Virus record (IMG/VR): IMGVR_UViG_3300044613_003454
Span: 1-52,813 of that record
Source of the DNA: a virus
Length of the DNA: 52,813 nucleotides
Direction: 5' to 3' (one strand)
Positions 1 through 49,523 of the stretch are shown here, in pieces; the first letter of the stretch is position 1, and each line of letters opens with the position of its first letter. The notes beneath the pieces are model-generated. The model saw only the letters and a list, made by a program, of their open reading frames with translations. It had not been told where the DNA came from and made no database searches. Position numbers and translations under genes: made by a program.

Positions 1-191
1 TGAACCGTTCCCGTAGTAGGCCAGGCAGAGGATCCCTAGCCAAGAATCAGTCAGAGTGACCACCTGATCCGCCCCGCGATTCAGTGGGGGTTCAGGGGTA
101 GCGGACCCCCCGAAGTACCACCGGGCCATCGCCTCGAAGACGGGGAGGGGTATCCGGTTCTCAGATCTTGGACCGGCCGGTCGGTCTTGGG
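1..191. repeat. Terminal direct repeat, left copy
   Basis: These 191 bases recur at the right end of the window (52623-52813). The copies differ at one position that I can see: C at 64 against T at 52686. The repeat holds the last bases of the terminase gene and the start of the small gene between terminase and portal. It therefore sits inside the late operon, which suggests overlap of a circular or circularly permuted genome rather than true T7-style ends. A real terminal redundancy is not excluded. Confidence 0.95.
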
Positions 192-2122
192 TCAGCGGTT
201 CTTGCATCGAGGATCTCGTTGATCTGGTGGGCGTTCAGCTGGGAGAGGTCGAGGCCTTCGCCGATGTGGTGGCCGTTCTCGTAGTAGTCACCGTCCCGCA
301 GCCGCTCGAACAGGGTCTTGTCGTGGTCTGCACCCGGGACCTTGGAGAGGCGGCCCCGGAGGACGAATTGGCTCATGGCGACCGCGTCCAGGCAGTCGTC
401 CTTTTCGAGGCCGCCGTCAGGGGCCTCGGGGTTGAAGGACTCGATCTGGTCGAAGAGGTGCCGCCAGGGAAGCTGGTCGCGACGCCAGAGGGGGAGCTTG
501 ATCTTCCCGTGCTCGAAGCGGAACTGGAGGCCGGCGATCTTGTCCTGCTTCTCCGTCATGCCGGGGTTGAGCTTGACGATCTTGGGCAGGTGGGCGGTGC
601 CGGCCATGTCGTTCGCACGGGTGGAGACGATGGAGGTCAGGGCGTTGAAGAGGGAGACGCCCTGGCGGATCACCTCCGGGTGGACGGTGGGGCACCTCCA
701 GCGGTCCGCCATGTCGAAGACGGCCCGCACCAGCTCGGACTCCTGCCCCTGCCGGGCCCAGAGGTCCAGGACGAACAGGTCGTTCTGGGGGGTCACCGCC
801 ATCAGGCAGCACACCTTGTAGTCGGAGTCGCTGCCCGAGGTGTGTGAGGTGTCGGCGGTCATGAAGGTGCGGCAGTAGGACTGGAGGAAGTCCTTGATCG
901 GCATCTTCTTCCGCTCGGTCACGTCACCCCGACGCTCGTCCCAGCAGATGTAGGCGGTCGAGTTGAGGGGACGGTCGATCCGGTCGTCGATCTCCTCGAA
1001 CCACCAGGCGTGCCGGTCGTCGAGCTCGCCAAAGAACGCGGAGTCCCCGTCGCCGGGGTTGGCGAGATACTCGGAGTTGAAGTTGGCGGAACCGATGGAC
1101 TCCCGGATCTCCTCCAGGGAGAGGGCTTCCTTGAAGCGGGGGCGGGTGACCGCCAACGAAAGGCGTTCCTCACGGGTGGTCGGCCACATGTCCGGCCAGC
1201 AGGACGAGAGGACACCGTCCTCCTCGATGGCGGCGGGGATCACGAGGCGGGACCACCGGTTGAAACGGGGGTCCTTCGCGCGGGCGCCCTCGGGAGTTTC
1301 CTCCAGCTGCATCGCGTGCCAGAGGTAGTGACGCTTCGAGACGAACGTGCCCACCCAATCCACGCCCGTGTCCGGGCGGGTGACCATGGGGATCACGATC
1401 TTGAAGAGGAGCTCGGACATGTACGCCCGCAGCACCGACATCGGGGTCGAGGCCTTCGGGTCGTACTCGGGGTCGTCGAGACGGTAGCGGCGGGGACGGC
1501 CACCTCGCTGCTTCGAGGAGGCGCTCAGGAGGCGGAGCCACGAGCCGTTGTTGAGGATCATGTGCTCCGTGGAGAAGGAGCCCTCGCCGCGACGGGGGAT
1601 GATCCGGCCGCCCTCAAACTCCGGGGCGAAATCGTCGTTCAGGCGTTGGTTATGGATCAGTTGCCGCTTGATCCGCTCGCCCACCTCGCGGGCGTTCGGG
1701 TGCGTGGAGGTCGCGTACACGAACGAGTAGGCCGGCCTCGTGACGAGGCGGAGCAGCATGTCCTTGCAGTTGAGGTACGACTTGGCGGAGCCTCGGGGGG
1801 CCACCGCGGCGGTCATGCGGTACGAGGCCCACTGGCGTAGGAGCACCCAGTGGAACTCAGGGGTCTCCAGGGGCGTGTCGTCGTAGAAGAGCGGATTGAT
1901 GTCCGCATCTTCATCGGGCCAGAGGTAGTAGCGATCAAACCACCATACCGAAGCGACCAGGTTGTCGCCGCGGGTGACTGGATTCTCGTCGAGCAAGAGC
2001 CACTGCCGGCATGCGTTGACGCGAGCCTGACGCTGACCGTCGTCGGTGAGCGTGTCATAGTCGGCCGGCAACGGGTAGTTGGGGTTGCCTTCCGCACGGG
2101 TCTCGATCCTCTTGACGGTCAT
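161..2122 (-). CDS. terL: Terminase large subunit
   Basis: ATPase-nuclease motor that packages DNA through the portal. The product has 653 residues. A Walker A-like motif, APRGSAKS, lies at about residues 108-115, and a Walker B-like segment ending RLDDPE at about 214-219. The C-terminal RNase H-like nuclease shows D424 in MTADTS, acidic residues at about 432-434, and the LEKDDCLDA cluster at about 572-580. The start at 2122 is chosen because its ATG overlaps the upstream stop as ATGA; an open frame continues to 2176 but that part lies inside the neighbour. The next genes downstream, across the contig junction, are a small protein and the portal, which is the expected packaging order. Packaging type (headful or site-specific) cannot be read from this. 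Confidence 0.95.
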   Translation of the reverse strand: MTVKRIETRAEGNPNYPLPADYDTLTDDGQRQARVNACRQWLLLDENPVTRGDNLVASVWWFDRYYLWPDEDADINPLFYDDTPLETPEFHWVLLRQWASYRMTAAVAPRGSAKSYLNCKDMLLRLVTRPAYSFVYATSTHPNAREVGERIKRQLIHNQRLNDDFAPEFEGGRIIPRRGEGSFSTEHMILNNGSWLRLLSASSKQRGGRPRRYRLDDPEYDPKASTPMSVLRAYMSELLFKIVIPMVTRPDTGVDWVGTFVSKRHYLWHAMQLEETPEGARAKDPRFNRWSRLVIPAAIEEDGVLSSCWPDMWPTTREERLSLAVTRPRFKEALSLEEIRESIGSANFNSEYLANPGDGDSAFFGELDDRHAWWFEEIDDRIDRPLNSTAYICWDERRGDVTERKKMPIKDFLQSYCRTFMTADTSHTSGSDSDYKVCCLMAVTPQNDLFVLDLWARQGQESELVRAVFDMADRWRCPTVHPEVIRQGVSLFNALTSIVSTRANDMAGTAHLPKIVKLNPGMTEKQDKIAGLQFRFEHGKIKLPLWRRDQLPWRHLFDQIESFNPEAPDGGLEKDDCLDAVAMSQFVLRGRLSKVPGADHDKTLFERLRDGDYYENGHHIGEGLDLSQLNAHQINEILDARTADPRPTGRSKI

Positions 2123-2508
2123 TCGGTTTCCGGGCGGTACAGGAACATCGGGGTCCCGCTGCCCAGGTACGCACACTCGATGTTGTGCAGGAAGAACTCG
2201 TGGGCCTCCTCAAGGCCCATGTCCTCCGAGAGGACCTCGATGCAGCGGTCGGCGTCGTACACGGCCAGCGGAGGGGACCCCCACTGGACTGCGTAGCCGA
2301 TCAGGGCGTCGTCCATGTTGTCCACGAACAGGGCGTCCGGGTTCATCTCGGAGATGGCTTCCCGCAGACGCTGCCCGTAGTTGACGCGGCGGACCTGCTG
2401 GCGGAGATCCTTGATGGTCTCGATCGCCTCGTCGATGATCGTGTGATCCTCGGACGGGTAATACTCCCGCATCTCCTCCAGCCGCTTCTCGATGTCAGGG
2501 ACGGGCAT
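2119..2508 (-). CDS. Conserved small phage protein upstream of terminase
   Basis: A 129-residue protein with no assigned function. The N-terminal third is a charged helix. It is followed by a segment with ALIGYAVQWGSPPLAVYD and a C-terminal ECAYLGSGTPMFLYRPE, a pattern I associate with short uncharacterised proteins of many aquatic phages; that link is from memory. It overlaps terminase by 4 nt (ATGA) and the upstream gene by 14 nt, so it is probably co-translated with both. No membrane segment or catalytic motif is visible. A role in packaging or early assembly is only inferred from position. Confidence 0.8.
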   Translation of the reverse strand: MPVPDIEKRLEEMREYYPSEDHTIIDEAIETIKDLRQQVRRVNYGQRLREAISEMNPDALFVDNMDDALIGYAVQWGSPPLAVYDADRCIEVLSEDMGLEEAHEFFLHNIECAYLGSGTPMFLYRPETE

Positions 2509-21660: not shown

Positions 21661-21661
21661 C

Positions 21662-29832: not shown

Positions 29833-29846
29833 GCTTTGAGTATCCC

Positions 29847-29881
29847 AAAGAAAGAGGGAGCCCCCTTACGGAAGCCCCCTC
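29847..29881 (-). terminator. Intrinsic terminator (minus strand)
   Basis: On the minus strand GAGGGGGC pairs with GCTCCCTC (eight pairs, one G-U) and is followed by TTTCTTT. It lies after the 150-aa gene and before the 1127-aa gene. Confidence 0.75.
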
Positions 29882-29908
29882 CGGGGAGTAAAGATGCCTG
29901 CGGGAAGG

Positions 29909-30361: not shown

Positions 30362-30369
30362 GGTTCACC

Positions 30370-33646: not shown

Positions 33647-35301
33647 TGTCCGCCTTCCATCTCGCTGAGGAGAGATTCAAGCCTCTGGGTCTCGATGTCC
33701 GATGCGGCCATGCCGCCCTGTCCGAGGATCTGTTCTTGACGGAGCCGTTCCTCTTCACCCAGGGCTGCACCACGGGCTCCGAGTTCGCCGGCCTGGGCCT
33801 GCTGTGCCTTCAGCATCTGCAAGATCACGCGGGGATCCAGGTTCTGCAACTCGGGCTCGGCCCGGGTCAGTGCCTCGATCACCCCCAACAACTCCTGGTC
33901 TCCCATGCCGTAACCGGTGAGCTGCTGCCGAAGGGCCCCGAGCTGCTGCGATCCTTCCGCGGTGGCATAGGCGGCCATCGCATTCCGGTACGCACCACCG
34001 AGATCGAACTTTGAGTGGTCCACGATCTTCTGTCCACCCATCAACTTCGAGTCATCCCCGACCGCCTGCACCGCGTCGATGATCCGACCGACCCCGGTCA
34101 GGGTTTCCCCGAGCACCTCGCTCAACGCCCCATCCGCCCCGCTCGTCCCGAGCCGAGCGAAGGTCTGCGTCCGATTCTCGGCCAGGCCCTCGACGGACTC
34201 CAGCATCCCCATGATCTGGGCGTCGGACATGCCGGCCTGCCGAAGCTGCCCCAGTCCAGCCGCGATCTCCCCCTTGATTGCATCCTGCTGCTGTTGGTTC
34301 AGGTCTCCTGTCCAGTCTTCGCTGCGGCCCAGGCGGGCACCTCCGGCGAGCACCTTCATCATCGCCGCCTTCACGACATCCTTCTGGCCAGCCTTCATCC
34401 CAAGCCCGTCGGAGTGGTTGTCGAGGGCCCGCTCCATGATCGCCGCCGTCATCGCCAGCGGACTCTTGGTCGAGTCCGAAAGGCGTTCCCGGTAGTCCTC
34501 CGGGTTCGAGATCCCGAGAATCGACTCCCCAAGGTTCTCCAGCAGGATCTCTCCGCCTGCGGTGAACAAGCCAAGACCGGTCGTGACCGGAACCCCCTGA
34601 GCCATTTGCACGCGGCCCATCTGCCCCCAGAACCCGTTGCCTCGGGTGACATCGAGGAAGGCGTCGTCGATCGCCCGGGTCATCGCGTCCTCGGCCCCGG
34701 TCCGCTGGGTCATCATGGCGCTCTGGAACGACTGCAACTTACCCATGACCTCGGTGCCCCGCTCCTCCTTGGTCGTGGTCGCAAGCTGGTGGGCCGCCAT
34801 GGTGGAGTTCATGGCCATCTCCAGGTTGCGAGCCTGGGCGTCCAGTGCCTTCCGCTGGTTCCGCATCTCGACCAGTCGCGGGTCGTTGCGGGATGACGCC
34901 AGGATCTGGGCGTCCACCTTCCGCTTCTCGGCCTCGATCTGCTGCAACCGGACCGAGGTCCGGTTCTGCATCATCATCAGTTCCTTGCTCTGCGCTTGGG
35001 ACTGCTCGAACTGACCCTGCTGCTGGGCCATCTCCTGCTGGGCCATCCGCTCACGACTGGCGTTCAGCTGGGCGTAGTCGGCGGACTGGGCCGCCTGGGC
35101 CTGCTGCTGCATCTGTGCCTGGGCCGCCAGCTCGGTCTGCTGCATCTGGGCCCGGTTCGCCTCGGACTCCGCCTGCTGCCGAAGCGCCTGCCCCTGGAGC
35201 CCCACATTCGCCTTCGTCTCGAAGTTGCGACGGGCGACCTCAAGGTTGCCGACCCCGGCCGCAAGCTGCTGGAGGAACGGGTCCGCGTCAAACTGGCTCA
35301 T
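33643..35301 (-). CDS. Glutamine-rich coiled-coil internal virion candidate (552 aa)
   Basis: A 552-residue protein opening MSQFDADPFLQQLAAG. The first 180 residues are a Gln/Ala-rich coiled coil (QMQQTELAAQAQMQQQAQ). The middle holds a hydrophobic patch (VTTGLGLFTAGGEILLENLGESILG), and the rest is helical. It is coupled to both neighbours (ATGA). It shares the MSQF start and Gln-rich build with the next upstream gene, suggesting duplication within an ejection-protein module. Confidence 0.78.
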   Translation of the reverse strand: MSQFDADPFLQQLAAGVGNLEVARRNFETKANVGLQGQALRQQAESEANRAQMQQTELAAQAQMQQQAQAAQSADYAQLNASRERMAQQEMAQQQGQFEQSQAQSKELMMMQNRTSVRLQQIEAEKRKVDAQILASSRNDPRLVEMRNQRKALDAQARNLEMAMNSTMAAHQLATTTKEERGTEVMGKLQSFQSAMMTQRTGAEDAMTRAIDDAFLDVTRGNGFWGQMGRVQMAQGVPVTTGLGLFTAGGEILLENLGESILGISNPEDYRERLSDSTKSPLAMTAAIMERALDNHSDGLGMKAGQKDVVKAAMMKVLAGGARLGRSEDWTGDLNQQQQDAIKGEIAAGLGQLRQAGMSDAQIMGMLESVEGLAENRTQTFARLGTSGADGALSEVLGETLTGVGRIIDAVQAVGDDSKLMGGQKIVDHSKFDLGGAYRNAMAAYATAEGSQQLGALRQQLTGYGMGDQELLGVIEALTRAEPELQNLDPRVILQMLKAQQAQAGELGARGAALGEEERLRQEQILGQGGMAASDIETQRLESLLSEMEGGQ

Positions 35302-36542
35302 CGACCGCCTCCGAACTCAGGCGTGGGGGTGAACGTGATGCCCGGCGTGGTCATCGCAGAGATGTACCCGGTGAGGGCCGCGAACATGCTGGTGGCCCCA
35401 CGCCGGTTGCCCATGATCATCGAGTACATGTCCTTGTATCCGTTCGCCAGGAGGCCGACCGCCTGCAACTCGCTGGCCGCGGACATCTGCTCCATCGTCG
35501 TGTTCAGGCTGGCCGACAGCTGGGTCATCGCGTCCCGGCTTCGCTGGGCGTCGAGCGTCTGGGCCCCGAACGCGGTGCCGATCTGACCCCGCAGCTGACC
35601 GCCGGCCATCGCAGTCTGGCTCTGGGCCATCGTGAGCTGCGAGAGGTTCTGGCCCATCTGGGCCATCGTGTCGTTCAGCCCGGTGTAGATCTGGTTGACG
35701 CCCTGGCTGACCTGCTCGCTCACGGCCTGCTGCATGTTCTGGGTCATGGCCGCCTTCTCCGCCGGCGTCATCATCGACCCGTCCGGATTGCGGCCCATCT
35801 CGATCGACCGCATCTGGTTCTGCACCTGCCGCTCCAGCCCAACCCTAAGATCAGACGCCTGCTGGGCACTGCGGTCCTGGTAACCCGCGATCGTCTTCTC
35901 GTACTGCTGACGGGCCTCGGCCGCGAACTGGTTGGCCTGGGTGATGTCCTGCCCAACCGCCCCCATCTGCTGGTCCCGGAACCGCTCGAACTCCTGGAGC
36001 CCCTGCTGGCCCTGCTGCTGAACCTGCTGGGCGATCCCGCCCAGGTTCTGCCGCATCGCCTGATCCTGGTTCCGGATCGCCTGGGCCCCTTGCTGGAGCT
36101 GCTGGCCGAACTGCCCGATCGCCTGTTCCCCGCGACCGAACTGCTCGTTCATGATCCCCTGCTGGTTCCCCATGTCCTGGAAGATCGCTCCCCCCAGGAG
36201 GGTCCGCCACGCGGCATCGTTGATCGCCGACTGCTGACGGGGTCCAAAGTTCTGATTGGGCTGACCCATGCCCATCCGCCTACGGGCCGCATCAGCCGGC
36301 GTGGTTCCGGTCATTCCCGGACGAGACTGGAAACCAGCCTGTCGCTGCTGTGCCGCCTGCTGTCCCTGCCCCTGGAGCTCGCGAAGCCGGTCCATCGGAT
36401 TGAACGATCCGGGGCCCATCGTCTGGGGGACATTGGACCGACCGCGATAAGTGGATCGTCGAGCCTGGGGTCCGAACGGGGAGAAGTTGGCGACCGGGTC
36501 GTAGTTGCCCTGTCCGAAGTTGGGTACGTTGAACTGGCTCAT
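35298..36542 (-). CDS. Glutamine-rich internal virion candidate (414 aa)
   Basis: A 414-residue protein starting MSQFNVPNFGQGNYDPVANF, then a very Gln-rich coiled coil (QQLQQGAQAIRNQDQAMRQN and similar) and a C-terminal part with Gly and Thr (AALTGYISAMTTPGITFTPTPEFGGGR). ATG 36542 overlaps the nozzle gene's stop (TGATG); a frame open to 37616 lies inside that gene and is rejected. Probably assembles in the head core like T7 internal proteins; inferred from composition and order. Confidence 0.78.
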   Translation of the reverse strand: MSQFNVPNFGQGNYDPVANFSPFGPQARRSTYRGRSNVPQTMGPGSFNPMDRLRELQGQGQQAAQQRQAGFQSRPGMTGTTPADAARRRMGMGQPNQNFGPRQQSAINDAAWRTLLGGAIFQDMGNQQGIMNEQFGRGEQAIGQFGQQLQQGAQAIRNQDQAMRQNLGGIAQQVQQQGQQGLQEFERFRDQQMGAVGQDITQANQFAAEARQQYEKTIAGYQDRSAQQASDLRVGLERQVQNQMRSIEMGRNPDGSMMTPAEKAAMTQNMQQAVSEQVSQGVNQIYTGLNDTMAQMGQNLSQLTMAQSQTAMAGGQLRGQIGTAFGAQTLDAQRSRDAMTQLSASLNTTMEQMSAASELQAVGLLANGYKDMYSMIMGNRRGATSMFAALTGYISAMTTPGITFTPTPEFGGGR

Positions 36543-39500
36543 CAGCTTCCTCGGGTGGTTGCGGACCGTTCCATGGTGAGGATATTGCCCCGGACCGAGC
36601 ACGCCAGGAGTCGGTAGTCCAGATCGGGGCAGAAGATCCTGACACCAGGGCTCAACGAGTTGCCCTTGGCCCCGTACCGCCCATCGGAAGAATCGGTACC
36701 GAAGGCCGCATAAACCAGCCCTTCCCCGTCTTCGATCGACCCGTACAGGCTCCCGTCCGTCTCCTTCGTCTGTGCCTTCGCCACCGGATCCTCGTCCGTC
36801 CCCGAATACAGCACTCCCATGAACCGGTTCATCGGGTTGTTGGCGGTCAGGGTGTCCGTCACCGGGGGCCCGGCCACGTCCGTGAACGCACAGCCCACCG
36901 TATGGGCCATCTTGATCCGGAAGAAGTCGGCCAGCGAGAACACCTGGTTGACCTCGTTGTTCAACCCCAGGTTGTGGCCGACCCACTCGAAGTACACCGG
37001 GCTCACCCCGAACACCATCCCCGAGTGGATGTCCGCCGTCCACGTGGGCACGGTATCCACCGTCACCCCCACTGATGTGTTGGAGACGATCCGGGTCTTC
37101 TTGCCCACATGCTGCGGATGGGTGGCCGAATGCACGCAGTACAGGTAACACCCGGTCCAAGCATTGGCGGACGTGATCGTGGGCGTCAATCCAGTGGGGG
37201 AGATGGCAAACGTCCCCGTCGAGATCGCCCCTGTCGCGATCACCCGGGAGTCCCCGTCGAAGTCGAGGGTGGTGATCCGCCGGTTCCCGTTCCAGCTCGC
37301 GGTGCCACCTACGATCGACTTGCTCCGGGCGTAGTCCACGACATACACCCGCGGCCCTGACCAGCCCACGGCCCCAGCCGGAGGGTTCATCAGGAACATC
37401 GCCCGCCGCTGCAACGGGTTCGCGTACTCGCTGGACGTGAAGTTGCTGGGCCACGCCCCCTGGGCCACGTGGTCGAACACCAGGTCTTCCAGCTTCGTGG
37501 TCTTGGCGGTCGAGAACCACAGGCAGTAGGCCTCCTCCTTGTTCGGGTTGAGGAGGAACATGGTGTTCATCGTCGGGTCGTACCCGAGCTGGATGTCGTT
37601 CATGTCCGACACCCACTCCTTCACGAACACCTGGTTCAGGATCCGGAGCTCATCGAGCTGGGCCTGTGCGTCCACCGCCTTCAGCCCGTGGGGGCTCGCG
37701 TAGTACGCCACGCTGCCGACCGCATCCACCGCCTTGTGGTTGACGACCCCGTAGCCCTCGTGCATCTCCTGGATGCGGATGAACCCGCCGCTCTTGCGGA
37801 TGTGGTACACCCGGTCCTTGGAGATCCCGAGCGCGTTCGCACCCACCTTCGAGAACGTGATCACCTCGCTGCTCGGAAGCGTCGGGTTGTACCGGTTGAA
37901 CGGGGGGAACAGCTCGGGGCTGAACTCCTGGAGACTCGACCACCGCATCTCCCCCAGGCCCTTGTTGATGTCCTCGACCCGCACCGTCTCCTCGGACGAG
38001 TCGGGCTGGGCGTCGATCTTCGAGACGATCATCGTGCCGTCGTAGAACAGGGCCGCCCCGCCGAACGGCATCTTCTGGTCGAAGATGCTGCGGTCGATGT
38101 ACGGGGTCTGGTACACGAGCTGCTTGTCCTCCAGCTCGTAGAAGTACATGGCGTGCCGGTTGTCCGTGACCGCCGGATCGAAGGTGCGACCGGTCCCGTT
38201 CTTGCAGGTGTGGTAGTCCTCCAGGTAGATGATCGCGTCGAGGAACGGGATCCCGGCCACCATCGTGCCGCCGGCATCCTGGATCTTCACGCTCCGGTAC
38301 ACGTACATCAGGTCGTACTTGCCCGAGTCGTACACGATCTCGATGCCCACGTACTGCTCACGCTGCACGTTGGTGTTGTTCGTCGAGACCCGGAAGTCCT
38401 CGGCCCGTGCCTGGGCCACCTCGCTGAACGCGCTCTTCCGCCCGGTCCTGGAATCGACCAGCATGTACCCGAACGCATAGTCGCCGGGCTCCAGCTTCCT
38501 GGCCCGGAACAGGTCCTCCGTCACGAACCAGCTGGTAGAGCTCGTGAACTTGTATTCGCAGCTGGTGCTCCTGCGGCCCCTGATCCGCCAGTAATACTTG
38601 GTGTTGTACTCAAGCTTCCCTGACGCGAACAACGCCGACGGCTCGTACTTCGTGACCGTCAACGCCGTGGCCACCCGCAGCTCGTCGTCGTCGTTGATGT
38701 CCCCTGCTCCCTGCTTGCCGAAGTACACATCCCACACGAGGTCGGTCGGCAAGGCCATGCCGGCGGTGTGGAAGGTGCTCCAGTCGAGCTCCGGGGTCAC
38801 CGACACGTTGGTCTGCTTGTAGGACGGGTTGATCAACACCGTCCTCAACCCGACGTTGACCTCGGTCTGTGCCGCATCGCACGCCGTCCCCAACGGGGAG
38901 ATGGGGGACGGAGGACTCGTGCTGCCCGGGGTAGGAGGGGTCGGCAGGGTGTCCGTCGAGCACAGACCCGTCACCGAGTTTGGGAAGATGTCGGTGCTCG
39001 CGTACGGCTCCGATTCCCGCATCACGATCTGGGCCGCACCCGGACGGTTGTCGTCAAGCGAGATGAAGTCCCCGATGGGGACGCTCGACTCGGGGCTCTT
39101 CAGCAGCGGCTGCAACCCGGGACCGGGCAAGTCCCCGCTCACGGTGGATCCCACCACCACGTTGGTGAAGAAATACGTGCTCGAATACTTCACCATCAGC
39201 TTCGGACGGATGCTGGTGTTCGCCTGTTCCTTGGAGGCGACATGGACGATGTTTCCCCCACTGATCCCGCGGACGAGGAAGTCGGTCTTGAACCCGAAGT
39301 CCTGCGGCCGTCCGGCGGTGGTGAGGCAGGCCTGCACCAGGGTCTTCACGTCCGTCACCACCCGGCCCTTGTATGCGGCCGGAAGGGTCTTGGCCGCGGT
39401 GGGGCTGCCGGCGGTGGTCCCGCCCGCAGTCTGCCAGTTCACCGCAGTGGCCCGGATGTCCCAGGTCACCTCGTTCTCGACCCAGTACGTGTTGGTGTCC

Positions 39501-40237
39501 GACGGGTCGTTCACCAGGAGGATGTCGAGCGAGGTCGATGCCGCGGTGTTGAAGTTCTCGGTGACGGTGAACTCCAGCGTCGCTTCCTCGACGGTCTGGT
39601 TGGACTCGGCCGTGGTGTTGAACCGAAACAGCGACTTGTTGTTGTAGGTGCTCGGCGAGGTGCCGGCGATCCGGAGGTTCTGCTGGCCGCCGTAGTTGGT
39701 GGTCGCGTTGGCGGAGTCGATGTACGAGTCAGCCTCGGGGTAGTACACCTTCTCGTTGGTGGCGTCCACGTAGAACAGGGACGGGCTGCGACCGGTGGCG
39801 AAGCAGTACACGAACCGGCCCGCCACCTCGCAGTCGAACTGGGCCGCGGTATCCACGGCGTCCATCAGCTTGACCACCCGGGTCCAGGACTGCGTGCCTG
39901 AGTTCCAGTAATCGAGGAACACGTCCGATACAGTGGGGGTCGCAGGCCTCTTGGCCCGGTACACGAATCCGTACCCGTAGTGCTCGGCCCCGATCCGGAA
40001 GTCGATCGGATGGAAATCCACCACCTCGGACGCTGCGGAATGGTTGGCTACGCCGGGAAGATCCGAGAAGGTGAAGACCCGCTTGAAGCCGGGGAACGGA
40101 CGGAGACCGCCCTCGTCGGAACCGTCCACGCCGGTGAGCTCGGCCGCCAGGCCCTTCTGCACGCCGGGGCGGGACAGTCGCTTATCCAGGGTTGTCTCGA
40201 TGAGCGGGTAGGCCCACTCGGTCTTCATGTCGGCCAT
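36542..40237 (-). CDS. Tail nozzle-like protein with inserted DNRLRE-type domain (1231 aa)
   Basis: A 1231-residue tail protein. The N-terminus (WAYPLIETTLDKRLSRPGVQKGL, LRPFPGFKRV) and the later DNRPGAAQI and YPEADS blocks resemble T7 gp12-like nozzle (tail tubular protein B), which is about 800 residues. About residues 170-350 hold a DNRLRE-like beta domain (ADSYIDSANATTNYGG, then SLFRFNTT and TWDIRAT). Another part (about 430-560) looks fibronectin-like. The extra domains could bind host glycans. It contains several copies of the dispersed word. Starts at ATG 40237. Confidence 0.75.
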   Translation of the reverse strand: MADMKTEWAYPLIETTLDKRLSRPGVQKGLAAELTGVDGSDEGGLRPFPGFKRVFTFSDLPGVANHSAASEVVDFHPIDFRIGAEHYGYGFVYRAKRPATPTVSDVFLDYWNSGTQSWTRVVKLMDAVDTAAQFDCEVAGRFVYCFATGRSPSLFYVDATNEKVYYPEADSYIDSANATTNYGGQQNLRIAGTSPSTYNNKSLFRFNTTAESNQTVEEATLEFTVTENFNTAASTSLDILLVNDPSDTNTYWVENEVTWDIRATAVNWQTAGGTTAGSPTAAKTLPAAYKGRVVTDVKTLVQACLTTAGRPQDFGFKTDFLVRGISGGNIVHVASKEQANTSIRPKLMVKYSSTYFFTNVVVGSTVSGDLPGPGLQPLLKSPESSVPIGDFISLDDNRPGAAQIVMRESEPYASTDIFPNSVTGLCSTDTLPTPPTPGSTSPPSPISPLGTACDAAQTEVNVGLRTVLINPSYKQTNVSVTPELDWSTFHTAGMALPTDLVWDVYFGKQGAGDINDDDELRVATALTVTKYEPSALFASGKLEYNTKYYWRIRGRRSTSCEYKFTSSTSWFVTEDLFRARKLEPGDYAFGYMLVDSRTGRKSAFSEVAQARAEDFRVSTNNTNVQREQYVGIEIVYDSGKYDLMYVYRSVKIQDAGGTMVAGIPFLDAIIYLEDYHTCKNGTGRTFDPAVTDNRHAMYFYELEDKQLVYQTPYIDRSIFDQKMPFGGAALFYDGTMIVSKIDAQPDSSEETVRVEDINKGLGEMRWSSLQEFSPELFPPFNRYNPTLPSSEVITFSKVGANALGISKDRVYHIRKSGGFIRIQEMHEGYGVVNHKAVDAVGSVAYYASPHGLKAVDAQAQLDELRILNQVFVKEWVSDMNDIQLGYDPTMNTMFLLNPNKEEAYCLWFSTAKTTKLEDLVFDHVAQGAWPSNFTSSEYANPLQRRAMFLMNPPAGAVGWSGPRVYVVDYARSKSIVGGTASWNGNRRITTLDFDGDSRVIATGAISTGTFAISPTGLTPTITSANAWTGCYLYCVHSATHPQHVGKKTRIVSNTSVGVTVDTVPTWTADIHSGMVFGVSPVYFEWVGHNLGLNNEVNQVFSLADFFRIKMAHTVGCAFTDVAGPPVTDTLTANNPMNRFMGVLYSGTDEDPVAKAQTKETDGSLYGSIEDGEGLVYAAFGTDSSDGRYGAKGNSLSPGVRIFCPDLDYRLLACSVRGNILTMERSATTRGS

Positions 40238-40277: not shown

Positions 40278-40643
40278 TCAAGGCCATTTGCCCTTGGGAC
40301 AGGTGGCTGCCGGCATCCTCGTCTTGACGGTCAGTTCGGCCCTGGCTTTCTTGCCGCACCCGCATGCCTTGCACCAGCCGACCTGGTCCGGTTCCTTCGA
40401 GGGTTCCAGGCTCGGGCAGGACCGGCAGGCATCAAGCCGCTTCCGGACATCGTCCTCGCTGATGAACTGGGTCAGCAAGGACACTTCCGCGCGGGCGTAC
40501 GAGACCGCCTTCTGGAAGAAGGACTTGGTTTCCGGTTCAGGTTCCGGGGGCCTCGCAGGCACGTTCCGGTCCTCGACCCTTGCCCTGAGCATCCCGTTCG
40601 GCGGTGTCAACGCACTGATGTAGTGATGTCCGTTCAGAGACAT
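40278..40643 (-). CDS. Small zinc-ribbon tail-region protein (121 aa)
   Basis: A 121-residue protein whose C-terminal half has CRSC, then CKACGCGKKA, then ATCPKGKWP. The C--C...C--C-C...CP-GKW pattern is a zinc ribbon I recall from many aquatic phage proteins. The N-terminal half is charged and helical. It overlaps the cysteine-rich gene by 10 bases and precedes the nozzle gene. Probably structural or an assembly factor; function not known. Confidence 0.78.
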   Translation of the reverse strand: MSLNGHHYISALTPPNGMLRARVEDRNVPARPPEPEPETKSFFQKAVSYARAEVSLLTQFISEDDVRKRLDACRSCPSLEPSKEPDQVGWCKACGCGKKARAELTVKTRMPAATCPKGKWP

Positions 40644-42568
40644 GGGTGGGTGGGATCCGTGGGCGGATCGGCCTCGCAAGCCGGCTTGATGATGTGCGGC
40701 TCGCAGCAGGGGTCCAGGGTCTCGGACTCGTTCTCGAACGCGAGGCAGAAGGTCCCGCAGCACGGGGTGGCATCGGTGCAGCCCTGGTTGATGGCGGCAC
40801 AGATGGACCGGTACGAGACCAGGGAATCGTAGACGTTGGGGACGTTGTTGGACACCGAGATCTTGTTGACCCGGTTGCACTCGTGGGGGCAGGTGCTGTC
40901 CCATGCCCCGCAGTTACGCCCGATCCCGTACAGGTACGCATGGTTGAGGATCGTGCAACTCGGCACGTGCCTCCACCCCACGGAGGCACAGGTGGACAGG
41001 GCCCCTGAATCCTCGAAGTCCACCCGCCCGTACACGAAGTGCAGGCCGTCGCAACTGGCCCCGATCATCACCGGCTGGCAAGTGCTGATCCCGCCCCCGT
41101 TCTCCGGGAATGCGTTGCAGTAGTCCTGCGGGGAGCACCCGATCTCCGGGCATATCGGTGCAGTCCCGCAGGGGCGGATCACGATGTTCGTGCAGTCCTC
41201 GCAGGTCTCGTCCGTACCCTGGCCGGGAGGGCAATTCTCGGTCACGTAGTCCCGGGGATACCCGGTGACGTTGAGGCAGTCTCCGCCGCAGATGTCCGAG
41301 TCGCGGCGGGGGACATTCGGGATCTGGTCTTCGGTGTACCCGTCCCAGCAGGCCCAGTCCCAGCCGCCCGGGCGGGCGTGGAAGTAGACCCATTGCCGCT
41401 CGGCCCAGAAGACGAAGTCGTCGTAGTCCTCGTCCCCGGGTTCCGGATACACCCCCGACCACGGGTCCACGATGCACGCCGTGGGTAGCTGGATGGTGAG
41501 ATCACGGGCGTCGAGCGGATCGAGCCGCTTCCAGGTTCCGTCACAGAACTCGAAGTACCGCTTCCTCACCGGACCCAGGTACGGCATGTCCTCGCACGCC
41601 GGCACCGTGCAGCCCGAATAGGCGGCGGGGAACATCGCCTTCAGGTCGATGAGCTCCTGGCGGGCCTCCTCTCTCCAGTCCTTCGCCTTCAAGTACCCGC
41701 CGTCAAACAACTTCTTCAAGACCTCCTGCGGTGGATCATTTTCGCTGCCAAGAGCTGCCACCAGCTCGCACCGTTCAGCATCCGTGATCACCGCGGTGTT
41801 GACCGCGTCGTCGAGGTCGAAGTCAAAGAGCGGCACCCCCGAGCAGGCGAAGATGAAGTGCTTGGGCACCACGCACTGCGGGGACAGCTCGTCCGGCGTG
41901 TTCGGGATGGTCAGTGGGGGAGATGGGTTCTGGCCGGACGGGCAGTCGTCGAAGGTCCACCAGTGCTCGGGATGCACCACCGCGATCAGGTGCTTGTACA
42001 GCGTGCCGGGGTAGACGGTGTTGTACTCACACAGCGGATCGGGTTGCCAGCCGTCGCACAGCACGATGGCCCCCCCGGCATGGCACAGGATGTCCACCAG
42101 CCACCAGTGCGATGGGTGATCCTCCATCCAGGTCTTTTGCCACGGGCTCAGGTTGTGGCCCACGCCGTCCGGGTCGCACGCACAGTTGGTGTACGGCAGG
42201 GTGCAGCAGTCGGTAGCGGTGGCGCTCTCGTCGCACGCACTGCACCGTTTCGTGCCGAACGGCGTGTACTGCGAGATGGCCGGCACGTTCACCAGGAAGT
42301 ACCGGTCCCGGTACGTGTACAGGGTGCGGAACGTGGGGGCGGCATACTCGGTGGTACGGCAGCAGAAGAGCGCGCAGTCGTACGCCCCTTCGGGCGGGGA
42401 CAGGGCGCAACAGTTGCTGGAGTACGTCACCGCTCCCGGTCGCTCGATCTCCAGGACCAGGCTCTCGTTGGGTCCGTGGCAGCAACCGGCGTTCTCGTCG
42501 ATCACGGCCCCCGAGATGCAGGGGTCGCAGATCTCCTGGTTGCAGCAGCACTCCTTCTTCGAGGTCAC
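40634..42568 (-). CDS. Extremely cysteine-rich virion candidate (644 aa)
   Basis: A 644-residue protein with about 55 cysteines by hand count (8-9 %), spread along the whole chain, with many CC pairs (KKECCCNQEIC, NCCALSPP, LFCC, DCCTLP, PCCGTFC, DPCCEP). It is also rich in Trp and aromatic residues (HHWW-like patches, WVYFHARPGGWDWACWDGY). No signal peptide is seen. Such density suggests many disulfides or metal sites in an exposed part of the particle. It lies between tail genes, so a tail or fibre role is likely. I know no family. Confidence 0.8.
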   Translation of the reverse strand: MTSKKECCCNQEICDPCISGAVIDENAGCCHGPNESLVLEIERPGAVTYSSNCCALSPPEGAYDCALFCCRTTEYAAPTFRTLYTYRDRYFLVNVPAISQYTPFGTKRCSACDESATATDCCTLPYTNCACDPDGVGHNLSPWQKTWMEDHPSHWWLVDILCHAGGAIVLCDGWQPDPLCEYNTVYPGTLYKHLIAVVHPEHWWTFDDCPSGQNPSPPLTIPNTPDELSPQCVVPKHFIFACSGVPLFDFDLDDAVNTAVITDAERCELVAALGSENDPPQEVLKKLFDGGYLKAKDWREEARQELIDLKAMFPAAYSGCTVPACEDMPYLGPVRKRYFEFCDGTWKRLDPLDARDLTIQLPTACIVDPWSGVYPEPGDEDYDDFVFWAERQWVYFHARPGGWDWACWDGYTEDQIPNVPRRDSDICGGDCLNVTGYPRDYVTENCPPGQGTDETCEDCTNIVIRPCGTAPICPEIGCSPQDYCNAFPENGGGISTCQPVMIGASCDGLHFVYGRVDFEDSGALSTCASVGWRHVPSCTILNHAYLYGIGRNCGAWDSTCPHECNRVNKISVSNNVPNVYDSLVSYRSICAAINQGCTDATPCCGTFCLAFENESETLDPCCEPHIIKPACEADPPTDPTHPCL

Positions 42569-43425
42569 GGGCAGGCCCCGTCGATCGTGTTGTCGGACTC
42601 GAACACGTATCGACCGTTGTCGGCACGGTGCATGAGCACGACCACGTTGAAGGTTCCCCCACTGATCGTCGTGCCCACCGCGATGGGCTTGAAGGCCTCG
42701 TCGAGCTCGATCTTGTAGCCCGGGCCGGCGAAACCGGTGGTGGCACCGGAGGGGATGGCGTTCACGGATTCGCGCACGTTCAAGGCGTAGTCCTGGGTCA
42801 AGGTGCCGTAGCGACCGTTCACCTTCACGGTGAACCCGTCACCGGCTCCGTATCCTGGCAAGGTTACCTCCTGCCAGGAATACTTCCAGCGGTAGATGTT
42901 CGGGGAGAATGACTGGTGCCCGGTGATCTGGGCCATGAAGGAGCCCTGGGTGTTGCCGCTGCCGGGGCCGCCGTTCTGCCCGTTGTTCCCGTCCACGTCG
43001 TCTTCGTTGCGGTCCGAATCGCACCCGGACTCCTGGCACTCCCCAAGATCGTGGAATGCACCATCCGGGTCCGGCACGCACTGGTCATCGACGCAGGCAT
43101 ACCGGACCTCTTCCCCCGGCCCCGCCCCGTTGCCGTCTCCCGATCCGCCCTCGCCAGGTCCTGCGGTCCCGCCTCCAGGACCACCCGGAAGACCGGGGTT
43201 CACCAACGGTGGAACCGCGGAACCCACGGTGTTGGTCCCGTAGTTGTTGAAGACGGACGGCCCCGTCTGCACGTACCCGGTCATCGACGGGAACTCCAGG
43301 CCGGCCACGAGCGTGACCTGCTGGAACCCCCTGGACCTCAAGCCCTTGATCCCGTCAGACAGCCCAGGAGTGACCTTGTCGAACTCCCTGTTCGCCAGGT
43401 CCTGCTGGTTGGGATCAGCACTCAC
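42565..43425 (-). CDS. Gly-rich protein with small Cys motif (286 aa)
   Basis: A 286-residue protein. The middle is Gly/Pro-rich (about 80-105). It is followed by a cysteine motif YACVDDQCVPDPDGAFHDLGE, then CQESGC, of a type I recall in many environmental phage and bacterial surface proteins. The C-terminal half is beta-rich (FNVVVLMHRADNGRYVFESD). A second acidic Gly/Asn-rich linker (DRNEDDVDGNNGQNGG) links the parts. Coupled to both neighbours. Probably a tail-associated or adhesion protein. Confidence 0.75.
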   Translation of the reverse strand: MSADPNQQDLANREFDKVTPGLSDGIKGLRSRGFQQVTLVAGLEFPSMTGYVQTGPSVFNNYGTNTVGSAVPPLVNPGLPGGPGGGTAGPGEGGSGDGNGAGPGEEVRYACVDDQCVPDPDGAFHDLGECQESGCDSDRNEDDVDGNNGQNGGPGSGNTQGSFMAQITGHQSFSPNIYRWKYSWQEVTLPGYGAGDGFTVKVNGRYGTLTQDYALNVRESVNAIPSGATTGFAGPGYKIELDEAFKPIAVGTTISGGTFNVVVLMHRADNGRYVFESDNTIDGACP

Positions 43426-43886
43426 GACAGGATCTCGGCCTTCCGGGCTGCCGTCAGGATTCCCACGCTCACGAGGTAGTCCATGCCGGCCCCGGTCACG
43501 GGGTCATCGCTGACCACTTCCTGGGCGGCCTGCGACATCATCAGGAAGTCGGCCAGCACCGGATCGCTCATCGCCCCAGTGCGAATCGCCGCACGTTCCG
43601 TAGGCGTGAACCGGTTCAGGAACTCGAACGAGGTCCAGGTCTTCCGGAGCTCGTCCGGAGTCTTGGCCCGCACCGTCCACCCACGAGTCACCCGGTCGGA
43701 TGCCACCGTGAACTTCTCGTCCACGGCCTGCGTCGCCTGGTTGTACGGAGGCACCGGATCGGTGAACACCGGGCGGTACGAAGCCGCCTTCGGGTTTCCG
43801 TTGGTGACAAGGGACTGGTACCAGGCCGGATCGAGATCGACTACCTCGACGACCTGACCATTGACCACCTTTGCATGCTCGCTCAT
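43422..43886 (-). CDS. Fibre chaperone-like hypothetical protein (154 aa)
   Basis: A 154-residue protein starting MSEHAKVVNGQVVEVVDLDP, with VPPYNQATQAVDEKFTVASDRVTRGWTVRAKT in the middle and helical C-terminal half. The opening (KVVNG-V--VI) and length are reminiscent of small proteins placed next to tail-fibre genes. Start at 43886 overlaps the LamG-like gene's stop (TGATG). A longer frame open to 44651 runs into the neighbours and is not used. Role is inferred from position. Confidence 0.7.
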   Translation of the reverse strand: MSEHAKVVNGQVVEVVDLDPAWYQSLVTNGNPKAASYRPVFTDPVPPYNQATQAVDEKFTVASDRVTRGWTVRAKTPDELRKTWTSFEFLNRFTPTERAAIRTGAMSDPVLADFLMMSQAAQEVVSDDPVTGAGMDYLVSVGILTAARKAEILS

Positions 43887-44527
43887 CAGCCGATCCTCTT
43901 GACGTGCGCCGCCGCAGCGGTCGCGTTGTTCGTGAATGACAGTCCGGCTCGAACGTCTTGAACCTCGCGGACGAGCGGCATGTAGAGCGCCAGCTTGTCC
44001 GGTCGGACCGCTGATGGCTTGAAGCCGCGGTAAAGCGACGTGACCTCGGCATCGTTCAGGACGACGCTCCAGATCCCGGCTTCTGCGATGCGTCCGTTCA
44101 AGTATTGCTGAAGTGTGGACGAGACGTACGTCGAGCCGAGCAAAGTCTTCTCCAGTTGCCCGGCGACCGGAGTTCTGTTCGAGCTCGTCGGTCCGGACTT
44201 TACGCCGTCGATCCAAACCTGTTGTGGCTGTCCTGCTGTCGTGTTCCACGATCCGGCGACATGATGCCAAGTGCCTGCCGTCACGGTGTTCGTGGTGTTG
44301 AGGCTCGCGAACGAACCAGATCCTCCGACCTGAATCGTGATTACGTTCGTCGCGCCGACGAGCAGGCTCCAGCGATCTCCACCTGTAGCTGAAGAGATGG
44401 ACAGGATTCTCTGGGCCGCTCCGGTCGTATCGACGTTGATCCAAGCGGCCAACGTCAGAGGTCCAGCCGTCAGCACCGCCGACGCAGCCTCCATGTAGTC
44501 GTTGGTTCCGTCGAAGTCCCAAGCCAT
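43886..44527 (-). CDS. LamG/concanavalin-like lectin protein (213 aa)
   Basis: A 213-residue protein with a LamG-like jelly-roll fold: MAWDFDGTNDYMEA, LTLAAWINVDTTGA, ISSATGGDRWSLLVG, GTWHHVAGSWNTT, QVWIDGVKSG and LNGRIAEAGIWSVVLNDAEV, the classic order of this family. Such domains bind sugars and occur in tail fibres. The start at 44527 overlaps the stop of the adaptor/fibre gene by one base. Probably host-recognition protein. The last 40 residues are helical. Confidence 0.85.
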   Translation of the reverse strand: MAWDFDGTNDYMEAASAVLTAGPLTLAAWINVDTTGAAQRILSISSATGGDRWSLLVGATNVITIQVGGSGSFASLNTTNTVTAGTWHHVAGSWNTTAGQPQQVWIDGVKSGPTSSNRTPVAGQLEKTLLGSTYVSSTLQQYLNGRIAEAGIWSVVLNDAEVTSLYRGFKPSAVRPDKLALYMPLVREVQDVRAGLSFTNNATAAAAHVKRIG

Positions 44528-47232
44528 TAGGCACCTGTTGGCGGAGGCAGGAAGCGGAGTTCGACGGCAAAGAGTTCTGCGTCCCCGGTGAGGGTGTCCC
44601 CGGTACCGCTGACATCGCTGGAGTCCCGGTACACCTTGAGACGGAACGCATCCCCGGCCGTCAACAGGTCGATCTTGTTGTACGGGAAGGTGATCTCGGT
44701 GACCGACGCGATTCCAGTTGAGAGGCTGGCCGCAGTCCTGGTTTCCTGGGAGCCCTCGCTGTCGAAGCTGTCGCTGCCGATGTTGGTGGCGATGATCTTC
44801 TGAAAGGTCGCCCCCCACCGAACATACTCTGTAGACGCGGGAAAACCGGAGGGAACCCAATGCACCCTCACCACAACCACGTCCCCGGATGCCGGCACCG
44901 TGAAACCGTGCGGCATCACGCCGACGAAGATGGCGGCCTCATTGGTCGCCCCGTCATCGAAGTCCAGCACCGCGATGCTGTTGCGGGTGTCGAGCGTGGC
45001 GAAGTTGGACGCTGGGGGCTGGTTGTCCAGGGGGGTCCAAACCTCGATGGTGTCCGTACCCGCCCTGCTCCTGTCCACCCACTCAAGACCGGCCCCCGCA
45101 TTGTTCACGCGAAGGATCTGGTAAGCCGTCCCGATCGAGAGGATCCCTGCGGTATCAGGTCCGGTACCTACCGCAAGATCTCCTGCTGCGTTCCAGATCG
45201 TGTCGGTGGCCACGGATCCACCGCCTCCGCCGGTGTTATCAGTTGCCGGGGCCCAAGCGATTCCGTTCCACTTGATCACCTCATTCAGGGCGGCACCGCT
45301 CTGGGTGAGGTCAGAAAGGGAGTGGGTGTGCGAGGCAGCCGCCACGCCCGCGTTGGCGATGGTGCGGTTCTTCCAGACTCCCGCCGTGTTGTCCCACGAC
45401 AGCAGGTCCTTCTCGGCCTTTCCGCTGATCAGAACGTCGCTGAGCTCCTCCAGCTCCTGGTAGTTCTGGATGTCGATGAAGATCGACCCATCCGGAGAAC
45501 CCGCTCGCTTCACGAGGAACCCTACGCGGACACCATGCTTGGGTGCCGCCGGCAAGGTGGGGGTGGTCGCACCCGCGGTGGTGGACAGGTAGAACGGATC
45601 GCCATCCACGGCCGGATAGGCAGCCGTGTTCGTGGTCAGACCGGTGAGGTAGCCGAAGACCTGGATCAGGCCGGTGGTGTTGGACGGGATGTCCTCGGCC
45701 GCGACGCCGATCGTGTTGGCACTGGTGGACTCAAGGTCCGCATCAGCCAGCTTCACCTTGGCCTCGGTCGCGGCGTGCGAGCCGCTGACGTAGACCACCT
45801 GGCCCTTGTTGATCTGGAAGGCCTCGTCGTTCCTCGCCCTCTTGTACAGGGCCTGCCCCTGCTTGAGGTTCACGTTGGAAGTGAGCCCGAGGGACACCGT
45901 GTTGTAGGTCGAGTCCCAATACTGCCGGCCCACCGCATCAGTGGGGGACACCACACCGGTGTTCAGGTCCAGCAGGTCCACGTTGACTTCGGTGACCGTA
46001 ATCGCCGACGGCAACCCCACCGTGACGGTGGTGCCGCTCACCGACGTTTCAACCTCGTTCGCGGTGCCGGCCACCGTGATGGTGCCGCTCGTGGTGATCG
46101 CCGTTCCGGTGCCGCTGTCCGCGGCCGGGGTGATCGAGGTGACCGTGCCGGAACCGCCGGGGCCGCCGGAAACCGTGCCGGGCTCCCACGTCGAAGTGGT
46201 GGAGTTCCAGACCAGGGCCTGCCCGTTCGTGGGGGCCGTGGACGCCACCGAGCGGCCCTGGAGGCCGTCCACCGTGGGGTTGGGGTAGGTGCCACCGAGA
46301 TCCCCGCCAGCGGCCCCGCACGGGGCGCACGTGCCCGTGGTAGCGGCAGAACCCGAGGTCCCGATCGTGTAGCCCCCCACTGGTTCGACGGTCGCGGTGA
46401 ACCGCTTGCCGATGCGGGAGTTCATGTTCCCGATCGTGTCGTGGGAGGTCTTGATCGCCTGCTTGTACGCAAGCGCCAGGTTCTGCATCGTGACCTGGTT
46501 GATCTTGCGGCCCACGCCCGCACGCATGGCGGCGGAGATGGCGATCGCGTCCGTCATGGGCTCCATGAGGAACGGGATCACCTCGTAGGTGTACGTGCCG
46601 GCGGCGTTGGCCGGAGGATTCCGGAGCGTCATGATCCCGGTGATCGGGTCGTGGCTCGTGATGATCAGCTCGTCGGTGATGTTCGCACCGAGGATCCGGA
46701 TGTAGGACCCGGCGTAGGCGTTGTCCCGCTTGTCGAGCGACCCGATGTTCGGGGTGCCCAGTGTAAAGGTGCCGTTCGCGTTGATCGTCCCCAGGGTGCC
46801 GTGGTGGGCGGCGATGTCCCCGCTGGGGACGTACATCACCAGATAGTTCTTGGACTCGGAGGGAGTGGGCCGGAACGCGAGGAGGTTGCCCTCCAGGGCC
46901 CAGCCGGGGCCGGCCAGGTGGAACTCGTTGCGGGGCCGGAAGTCCTCGGTGAACCAGCCGGTGTTCGGGTCCTGCACGCCGATGCGGAGGACCTGCTTCA
47001 CCGACGGCGGCAGCTTGTAGTACGTGGTGCCGTTGACCACCGAGATGGTCAACATGCAGATGATCTGGTTGTCCGCCATCATCGACACGCGGCCGATCAC
47101 GTCGGACATCGCGCTCGACAGGAAGAACCGGACCAGGTAGTTGTCGTCGTACTTCGCGTCGATGTCCGGGTCATCGAGGTAATGCCGGACCTTCTCGCAG
47201 TACGTCTTGATGATTGAACCGGATGAGTGCAT
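44527..47232 (-). CDS. Tail adaptor-like N-terminus fused to fibre-like region (901 aa)
   Basis: A 901-residue protein. About the first 250 residues resemble T7 gp11-like tail adaptors (SIIKTYCEKVRHYLDDPD, MADNQIICMLTISVVNGTTYYKLPPSVKQVLRIGVQD). From about residue 290 it is fibre-like: GGDLGGTYPNPTVDGLQGR, WNSTTSTWEPG, ISGKAEKDLLSWDNTAGVWKNRTIANAG and AGTDTIEVWTPLDN. The C-terminal 150 residues look like a beta domain. T7 keeps adaptor and fibre separate, so this is an unusual fusion. Follows the 182-aa gene downstream of the capsid gene. Confidence 0.75.
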   Translation of the reverse strand: MHSSGSIIKTYCEKVRHYLDDPDIDAKYDDNYLVRFFLSSAMSDVIGRVSMMADNQIICMLTISVVNGTTYYKLPPSVKQVLRIGVQDPNTGWFTEDFRPRNEFHLAGPGWALEGNLLAFRPTPSESKNYLVMYVPSGDIAAHHGTLGTINANGTFTLGTPNIGSLDKRDNAYAGSYIRILGANITDELIITSHDPITGIMTLRNPPANAAGTYTYEVIPFLMEPMTDAIAISAAMRAGVGRKINQVTMQNLALAYKQAIKTSHDTIGNMNSRIGKRFTATVEPVGGYTIGTSGSAATTGTCAPCGAAGGDLGGTYPNPTVDGLQGRSVASTAPTNGQALVWNSTTSTWEPGTVSGGPGGSGTVTSITPAADSGTGTAITTSGTITVAGTANEVETSVSGTTVTVGLPSAITVTEVNVDLLDLNTGVVSPTDAVGRQYWDSTYNTVSLGLTSNVNLKQGQALYKRARNDEAFQINKGQVVYVSGSHAATEAKVKLADADLESTSANTIGVAAEDIPSNTTGLIQVFGYLTGLTTNTAAYPAVDGDPFYLSTTAGATTPTLPAAPKHGVRVGFLVKRAGSPDGSIFIDIQNYQELEELSDVLISGKAEKDLLSWDNTAGVWKNRTIANAGVAAASHTHSLSDLTQSGAALNEVIKWNGIAWAPATDNTGGGGGSVATDTIWNAAGDLAVGTGPDTAGILSIGTAYQILRVNNAGAGLEWVDRSRAGTDTIEVWTPLDNQPPASNFATLDTRNSIAVLDFDDGATNEAAIFVGVMPHGFTVPASGDVVVVRVHWVPSGFPASTEYVRWGATFQKIIATNIGSDSFDSEGSQETRTAASLSTGIASVTEITFPYNKIDLLTAGDAFRLKVYRDSSDVSGTGDTLTGDAELFAVELRFLPPPTGA

Positions 47233-47843: not shown

Positions 47844-49523
47844 TCAGGCGATGTTGCCCGAAGCCATGTAGACCCGATCCTCGGTGATGCCCGTGAGCTT
47901 CATGCCGTTGACCTGGTCGGGGACGAGCTGCATCCGGATGCGGCCCGGCATCTGGCTGGCCTGGGTCACGAGGTTGGCCCCGCCGCCAGACGCGGTCTGG
48001 TAGACCGGGAGCTGGTTGGTGGAGGTCCCGGTGATGGCCCCGGCGACGAACTCGAAGGGCACGTAGGCGTCGGCCTCGGACATCTTGGACATGCCCTTGG
48101 GCGACGGGGGAACGTACTTCTTCCAGTTCTTCCCGCCGAGCTTGATGCCGTACATGGTGCCCGCCTCGACGAACCGCGAGGTGCTGCCCTTGTAGGTCTT
48201 GCCCTCGAACGTGAAGCTGAAGCCCTCGGCCTGGCCCTCGTTCGTGATCGACGCGGCCCGGTTGGTCCGGTCGATCCGGTACTGGCCGATCTTCTGCGAC
48301 TCGTACGCCGACCAGACGCCCTCGGACGCGATGAGCGTGTCGATGGTGTGGCCGAGCGGCTCGAACGCCGAATGGACCCGCTGGAGGTACCGCTTCAGGT
48401 TGTACTCGGTGAGCACGCCGTTGACCGCGTACTTGAAGCTCTTGAACTCCGGACGCTCAGACACGTCGATGTAGTCCGTGGAGTCCGCCTCGTTGCCGAG
48501 GAGACGCTTCAGGTTGCTGGTCTCGTAGCCGTTCTTGAGCCAGCTGTTGATGCCCGCGATGCCGGTGTAGGCGGTGCCGCCCGCATCGTTGACCAGGTGG
48601 CTGTTGGCGTACACCACATCGCAGTTGTTGTTGAGCTCGGTCGTGGCCGAGATGGTGCCGGCGGTGGTCGAGTCGTTGCGGAGCACCGAAGTCGGATCAC
48701 CTTCGAGGATGACGGTCACGGTGTTCGTGAGCGGATCCACGTTTTCCACCAGGAGCTGGATGCGGGTCGAACGCTTCGACTCGCTGAGGGTCAGGGTCGT
48801 GCTGACGAGCTGGTCGGCCGTGTCGTTGAGCCGCATGCCCGTGACCGCACCCGAGGCAGCACTTGAGTTCCAGAGGAAGTCGATGCGCATGCCGCGACTG
48901 AAGCGGTGGCAAGCGAAGTTGCCGGGCTCGAAGCTGAACCGGTACTTGCCGGAAGCGCCGATCTGGGTCGCACTGGTGATGTTGGTGATGGTGCAGAGCT
49001 TGTACGAGTCGTTCTGCGACAGGTACCAGTAGTTGCACAGCGTGTGCGCCATGTTGCGGGCGAACGCCGTCAGCTTCGGGGCGATGACCTGGTCGATGAG
49101 GGCCGGCGTAGCGTCCGCCTGCTTCTCGCCGAGGGTGATCATCAGGTTGGTGACGAGCGAACGCATCGGGATCGCCAGCCGGTACGCCGTGGCGTTCGGC
49201 CCCTCAAGCGGGCTCGGGTACGCCTGGTTGGCCGCCTGGGTGTGCATCAGGGGGCCGTACTCGGTGGTGAGATCGCCGTAGAGATCCTTGTCACCGAAGC
49301 CCTGGCCGGCCTCGATCACGCCGGTGAGGCTGCCCATGAAGAGCTTGGTGATCTTGAGGTCGCGGCCGAGGTCGCCGGAGTTGCCGACGCCCTGGCTGGT
49401 GACGACGTTCTCACGCCAGACCGGGTCGAGGCCGGCGAGGAACACCCGGAGGGACTTGTTGAGGACTTCCTGGATACGGTTGGACTGCCGGTCGAAGATC
49501 GAGCCGGTTGTTGCGAAAGGCAT
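47844..49523 (-). CDS. Major capsid protein
   Basis: A 559-residue protein located directly after scaffold and portal in the standard order. N-terminal MPFATTGSIFDRQSNRIQEVLNK, then SLTGVIEAGQGFGDKDLYGDLTTEYGPLM and a long beta/alpha body consistent with an HK97-type shell protein with extra domains. The composition is neutral and non-repetitive. GAAGGAAA is a good ribosome site before ATG 49523. Strong hairpin downstream. Family identity is inferred by gene order and fold-like features, not by a motif. Confidence 0.82.
   Translation of the reverse strand: MPFATTGSIFDRQSNRIQEVLNKSLRVFLAGLDPVWRENVVTSQGVGNSGDLGRDLKITKLFMGSLTGVIEAGQGFGDKDLYGDLTTEYGPLMHTQAANQAYPSPLEGPNATAYRLAIPMRSLVTNLMITLGEKQADATPALIDQVIAPKLTAFARNMAHTLCNYWYLSQNDSYKLCTITNITSATQIGASGKYRFSFEPGNFACHRFSRGMRIDFLWNSSAASGAVTGMRLNDTADQLVSTTLTLSESKRSTRIQLLVENVDPLTNTVTVILEGDPTSVLRNDSTTAGTISATTELNNNCDVVYANSHLVNDAGGTAYTGIAGINSWLKNGYETSNLKRLLGNEADSTDYIDVSERPEFKSFKYAVNGVLTEYNLKRYLQRVHSAFEPLGHTIDTLIASEGVWSAYESQKIGQYRIDRTNRAASITNEGQAEGFSFTFEGKTYKGSTSRFVEAGTMYGIKLGGKNWKKYVPPSPKGMSKMSEADAYVPFEFVAGAITGTSTNQLPVYQTASGGGANLVTQASQMPGRIRMQLVPDQVNGMKLTGITEDRVYMASGNIA

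Follow-up and report, generated by a model that had tools for sequence, protein, structure and literature searches.

Uncultured tailed phages carry a late-operon cassette whose variable member, in the window, is the cysteine-rich gene at 40634–42568 on the minus strand. With a probability of about one half, and judging from sequence, we read its product as a hypervariable, disulfide-stapled virion adhesion component that is made with a dedicated zinc-ribbon assembly helper, in the manner of a tail fibre and its chaperone. The window (the whole stretch of DNA analysed, 52,813 nucleotides) derives from an uncultured IMG/VR virus record, and the features used in the argument are as follows.

40634..42568 (−): hypervariable cysteine-rich protein, 644 aa, 55 Cys; from translation, composition, a conserved slot and the lack of a homologue
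42518..42550 (−): N-terminal CCC-x4-C-x2-C motif, residues 7–17 of the cysteine-rich protein; from the frequency of CCC among slot proteins
40278..40643 (−): zinc-ribbon partner, 121 aa, with an N-terminal module, an amphipathic KAVSYARAEVS helix and a C-terminal zinc ribbon; from PHROG 13558, identity and covariation
42565..43425 (−): g7, the upstream gene, with an N-terminal anchor-like region, a four-cysteine motif and a C-terminal domain; from alignment
36542..40237 (−): g9, putatively nozzle-like, 1231 aa, downstream border of the slot; CBM96 match at residues 165–350
47844..49523 (−): g3, candidate major capsid protein; from gene order, not HMM; 154 IMG/VR relatives
161..2176 (−): TerL

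Composition and genome setting

The first-pass annotation had counted about 55 cysteines over 644 residues, and the exact number is indeed 55 (8.5%, one residue in twelve), distributed along the whole length of the protein. Most window genes encode 0–2% cysteine, and the mean across other called genes of at least 150 aa in the window and its relatives is 0.88%. Dense cysteine is rare in phage proteins made in a reducing cytoplasm. The gene starts with GTG at 42568, and the four bases GTGA are shared with the stop of g7, the gene before it. GC content by codon position is 57/50/88%, and the third-position value of 0.88 is that expected for genes here, so the frame is taken as a real gene. All 13 clade members examined have a high-cysteine gene at this position, so chance is not the explanation.

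On the minus strand the gene order runs portal-like, scaffold-like, capsid candidate g3, g4, adaptor-like g5, g6, g7, the cysteine-rich gene, its partner, g9 and then nearly cysteine-free virion-region proteins, where portal, scaffold, capsid and nozzle are names assigned by gene order; the adaptor-like g5 has a weak SU10_adaptor match, below that model's cut-off. In the g5 gene (44527–47232, −) the adaptor-like part is fused to ~600 aa of fibre-like sequence with a GGDLGGTYPNP motif; it is ~294 aa long in most relatives, and a 992-aa form occurs in L014. A Laminin-G/pentraxin lectin-like domain at 43886–44860 (−), assigned to g6 two genes upstream of the cysteine-rich gene, overlaps an ORF at 43422–44651 in a different frame. 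Six virion-region proteins at 26449–35301 (−), ~2900 aa in total, contain one cysteine, in sharp contrast to the cysteine-rich gene.

Both flanking cysteine proteins described by the first-pass annotation exist, a zinc ribbon downstream and a Cys motif upstream, with the upstream gene holding only five cysteines (1.7%). Four of these form a conserved C-x4-C-x13-C-x4-C motif at 43021–43095 (−), and an invariant Cys285 lies one residue before the C-terminal end of g7 (42571–42573, −), where it might pair by a disulfide with the CCC head of the cysteine-rich protein. In L191, L192 and L199 the gene upstream of the cysteine-rich gene has a domain homologous to the C-terminal one of g7 (hhalign probability 95.7, E 1e-8).

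TerL (161–2176) and the portal-like gene (50465–52483), both on the minus strand, lie at opposite ends of the record, an arrangement suggestive of circular permutation and of a near-complete genome, despite the classification of the record as linear. A link of these phages to planctomycetes is conceivable. A Myxococcota host was considered on account of one capsid relative (L082) whose contig belongs to a Myxococcales MAG, yet when 379 Myxococcota genomes were searched for the partner they returned one zinc ribbon and no cysteine-rich neighbour, and no host was therefore assigned.

A conserved slot with variable occupants

The candidate major capsid protein was used as query against IMG/VR, and 80 of its 154 relatives were fetched. 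The segment between g7 and g9, hereafter the slot, is conserved in the close clade, and in every contig that covers it a cysteine-rich gene precedes the partner there. Capsid proteins of these close relatives are 74–87% identical to that of the window and g9 is ~49–63% identical, and their slot occupants are always cysteine-rich (6–10%); the window cysteine-rich protein aligns with no slot protein of those relatives at E < 0.05. Slot proteins, 220–980 aa long, fall into ~23 sequence clusters at E 1e-6, a threshold that is approximate owing to composition and silent on shared folds. Families F0, F1 and F4 all occur within the clade of the window, and F0 and F4 have little in common beyond an N-terminal MSNGxxxxxCCC (hhalign, 25 columns). 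The locus thus combines conserved flanks with a hypervariable body at a single position, as fibres and receptor-binding proteins do.

The zinc-ribbon partner co-varies with the cysteine-rich family

In the window the partner overlaps the cysteine-rich gene by ~10 bases and most likely starts at ATG 40643 (121 aa) rather than at 40904. Its ribbon matches PHROG 13558 (E 4.5e-9, residues 149–207 of the 208-aa ORF), its N-terminal module contains no cysteine and belongs to no recognisable class, and the protein is 35–44% identical to most partners in the clade. Across loci, the start of the partner and the stop of the cysteine-rich gene are no more than a few bases apart, mostly with an overlap, and the partners share the ribbon RLxxCxxC...LGWCxxCGCGxxxRAELTVKxxMPxAxCPxxxW.

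The partner alignment was used to scan IMG/VR and identified 80 loci. Where the upstream gene could be read, in 70 close loci, a gene of at least 3.4% cysteine lies immediately upstream in essentially all, the automatic ORF choice being wrong or incomplete in four, of which only one (L135) had its N-terminal head confirmed. The association extends to families absent from the partner-query alignment; in the weak matches L200 and L203–L206, the ribbon instead follows tail protein phrog_27845. Similarity of the partner N-module is 0.33 within and 0.10 between cysteine-rich families, a difference reached in none of 2000 permutations. Because relatedness inflates the similarity of both modules, the ribbon was taken as control, with values of 0.59 and 0.50, respectively. 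In L113–L121 the F0-type N-module is kept although the ribbon has been replaced. An adjacent helper that co-varies with its client family, as in fibre–chaperone pairs, is therefore present.

The cassette in other genomic backgrounds

Of 48 further records with the cassette, only 5 contain the capsid gene. Some ten of the others are longer than 30 kb, which makes it probable that the cassette moves across phage lineages, with the reservation that records may be fragments. In capsid-lacking contigs the pair adjoins tail genes or holin and lipoprotein genes. Genes in the vicinity of the cassette encode, in L114, a neck protein with a weak tape-measure match next to it and, in L135, a protein with an Mtd_N tropism-determinant domain; in L040 the cysteine-rich stretch is fused to collagen-like repeats.

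In F1, F3, F8 and some F0 loci (including L102/L113), the cassette lies directly downstream of genes for a holin-like protein and a small lipoprotein that ends in IPEGWYxVPPS, and a four-base overlap is common. This context makes a lysis-phase role the main rival, namely an envelope or secreted non-virion protein, paired with the product of the zinc-ribbon gene, which might block superinfection or keep progeny off debris; the Llp lipoprotein of phage T5 is the model for such a function. We consider it unlikely, given that the cysteine-rich proteins have no export signal by eye, that a collagen-fused form exists in L040 and that the window gene sits between g7 and g9. The holin-like gene of the window and its small lipoprotein (IPEGWYLVPPSF) are found at 21457–21971 (+), ~19 kb from the cassette and on the opposite strand.

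The CCC head and cysteine spacing

CCC occurs within the first 40 residues of 61 of the 75 slot proteins, compared with 1 of 741 control genes, and CC in 73 of the 75; slot-protein calling preferred starts near the first CC, which somewhat favours the head position, and the window start was not so chosen. Across the 75 proteins, CC occurs at 1.49 times and CxxC at 0.84 times the frequency in shuffles, and the window protein has three CxxC where 4.7 are expected. In family F0, 15 of the 30 columns conserved at ≥85% are cysteines, as expected for structural disulfides, and conserved Trp, Tyr and Pro are retained together with beta strands. The enrichment of CC and depletion of CxxC favour putative disulfides over zinc or other metal ligands.

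If disulfides do form, they might serve a structural clamp, collar or decoration protein that cross-links the particle and binds no receptor. A precedent exists in Agrobacterium phage Milano, whose structural proteins contain 2.4% cysteine and whose particle is stabilised by a disulfide network (PMC10491603), and the invariant near-terminal cysteine of g7 would suit such a role. Yet high cysteine across most structural proteins, as in Milano, is not found here: cysteine is confined to the cassette, with 0.7% in the capsid candidate and ~0% in the downstream virion region (one residue in the six proteins). A clamp has no need of hypervariability either, and we regard this reading as distinctly improbable.

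The first-pass annotation had left a choice between a metal-loaded and a disulfide-stapled protein, and cysteine spacing leads us to prefer the second. A metallothionein-like or Fe-S protein with a metal-binding or thiol-buffering role would agree with the very high cysteine content and the zinc-ribbon neighbour, but the spacing is unlike that of zinc ribbons or metallothioneins, no enrichment of CxxC clusters was found, lengths reach from 220 to 980 aa and F0 has the conserved aromatic residues, prolines and strands noted above. Metal binding is thus very unlikely, and a metal-storage reading was dropped on the spacing.

Searches for homologues and folds

The window cysteine-rich protein had no match in Pfam, PHROGs, NCBIfam or PDB, no relative among cultured phages (tblastn) or IMG/VR viral contigs (direct scan), and none by phmmer or family HMMs. 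Prediction of its structure from the single sequence was uninformative (pLDDT 33.7). A model of family F0 (L113, 18-sequence alignment) is mainly beta, with an overall pLDDT of 63.8 and a confident stretch at residues 11–90 (mostly 80–93); it returned no significant match in PDB or BFVD, porin-like matches having a TM of ~0.15, and no adhesin or fibre. Profile and fold searches, the latter with the F0 model only, likewise found nothing resembling a known fibre, spike or chaperone. The first-pass annotation would have yielded to an ordinary enzyme of known family; no such family or fold was matched, the fold model again being that of F0. The cassette was not found in cultured phage or plasmid records at the sensitivity used, and a literature search found no description of it.

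An effector or toxin that is injected or released against the host, and that the partner neutralises or chaperones, would also pair a hypervariable gene with a family-matched neighbour, but it is highly improbable in view of the late structural position, the constant ribbon and the absence of any effector or toxin family match.

Proposed role

Adhesion is preferred because host-recognition modules, for which precedents exist, are marked by the combination seen here: a hypervariable body between conserved flanks, a neighbour that co-varies with it and a presence in more than one genomic background. The suggestion of a tail component or adhesin accordingly holds as far as the late structural location, which synteny supports, and an adhesion or tail role is likely given the variability of the slot, its co-varying helper and the collagen fusion in L040. 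We propose that the protein, a mainly beta, disulfide-stapled adhesion part of the virion, would be synthesised reduced inside the host, where the co-made zinc-ribbon partner would hold or fold it, the variable N-module gripping the client and the constant ribbon performing a common task. Attachment would occur via the CCC head, possibly by a disulfide to the near-terminal cysteine of g7, and oxidation at or after lysis; a cassette swap would then alter the adhesion target of the phage.

More tentatively, the cassettes may represent a new host-interaction class, in which dozens of unrelated cysteine-rich proteins with only the CCC head in common, each with a matching zinc-ribbon helper, are exchanged as a unit between distant phages, the helper acting as a thiol chaperone that keeps cysteines reduced until the virion exits. 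The pair, which was found in uncultured phages only, would reveal a viral route to disulfide-stapled adhesins, and an N-terminal CCC with a downstream RAELTVKxxMPxAxCP ribbon would offer a sequence handle for host-recognition loci missed by the libraries searched.

Comparison with known systems

The C-terminal ribbon of the partner matches that of the PHROG 13558 zinc-ribbon proteins, a family of 69 positions and unknown function, to which the partner adds the amphipathic helix and a family-specific N-module. The cassette resembles phage Milano in having a cysteine-enriched protein within the structural region and differs in distribution, with 2.4% across the structural proteins of Milano as against 8.5% in one protein here and almost none elsewhere, and with disulfides that are putative.

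The closest functional parallel lies in swappable modules of a fibre and its cognate chaperone, found in distant phages such as Alteromonas phages A5 and V22 (PMC10579305). No sequence similarity to those modules was found, and in the present cassette the client is cysteine-rich with a CCC head, the helper is a zinc ribbon and function is predicted. The likeness lies in organization: an adjacent pair in distant phages, a helper matched to its client and conserved structural flanks.
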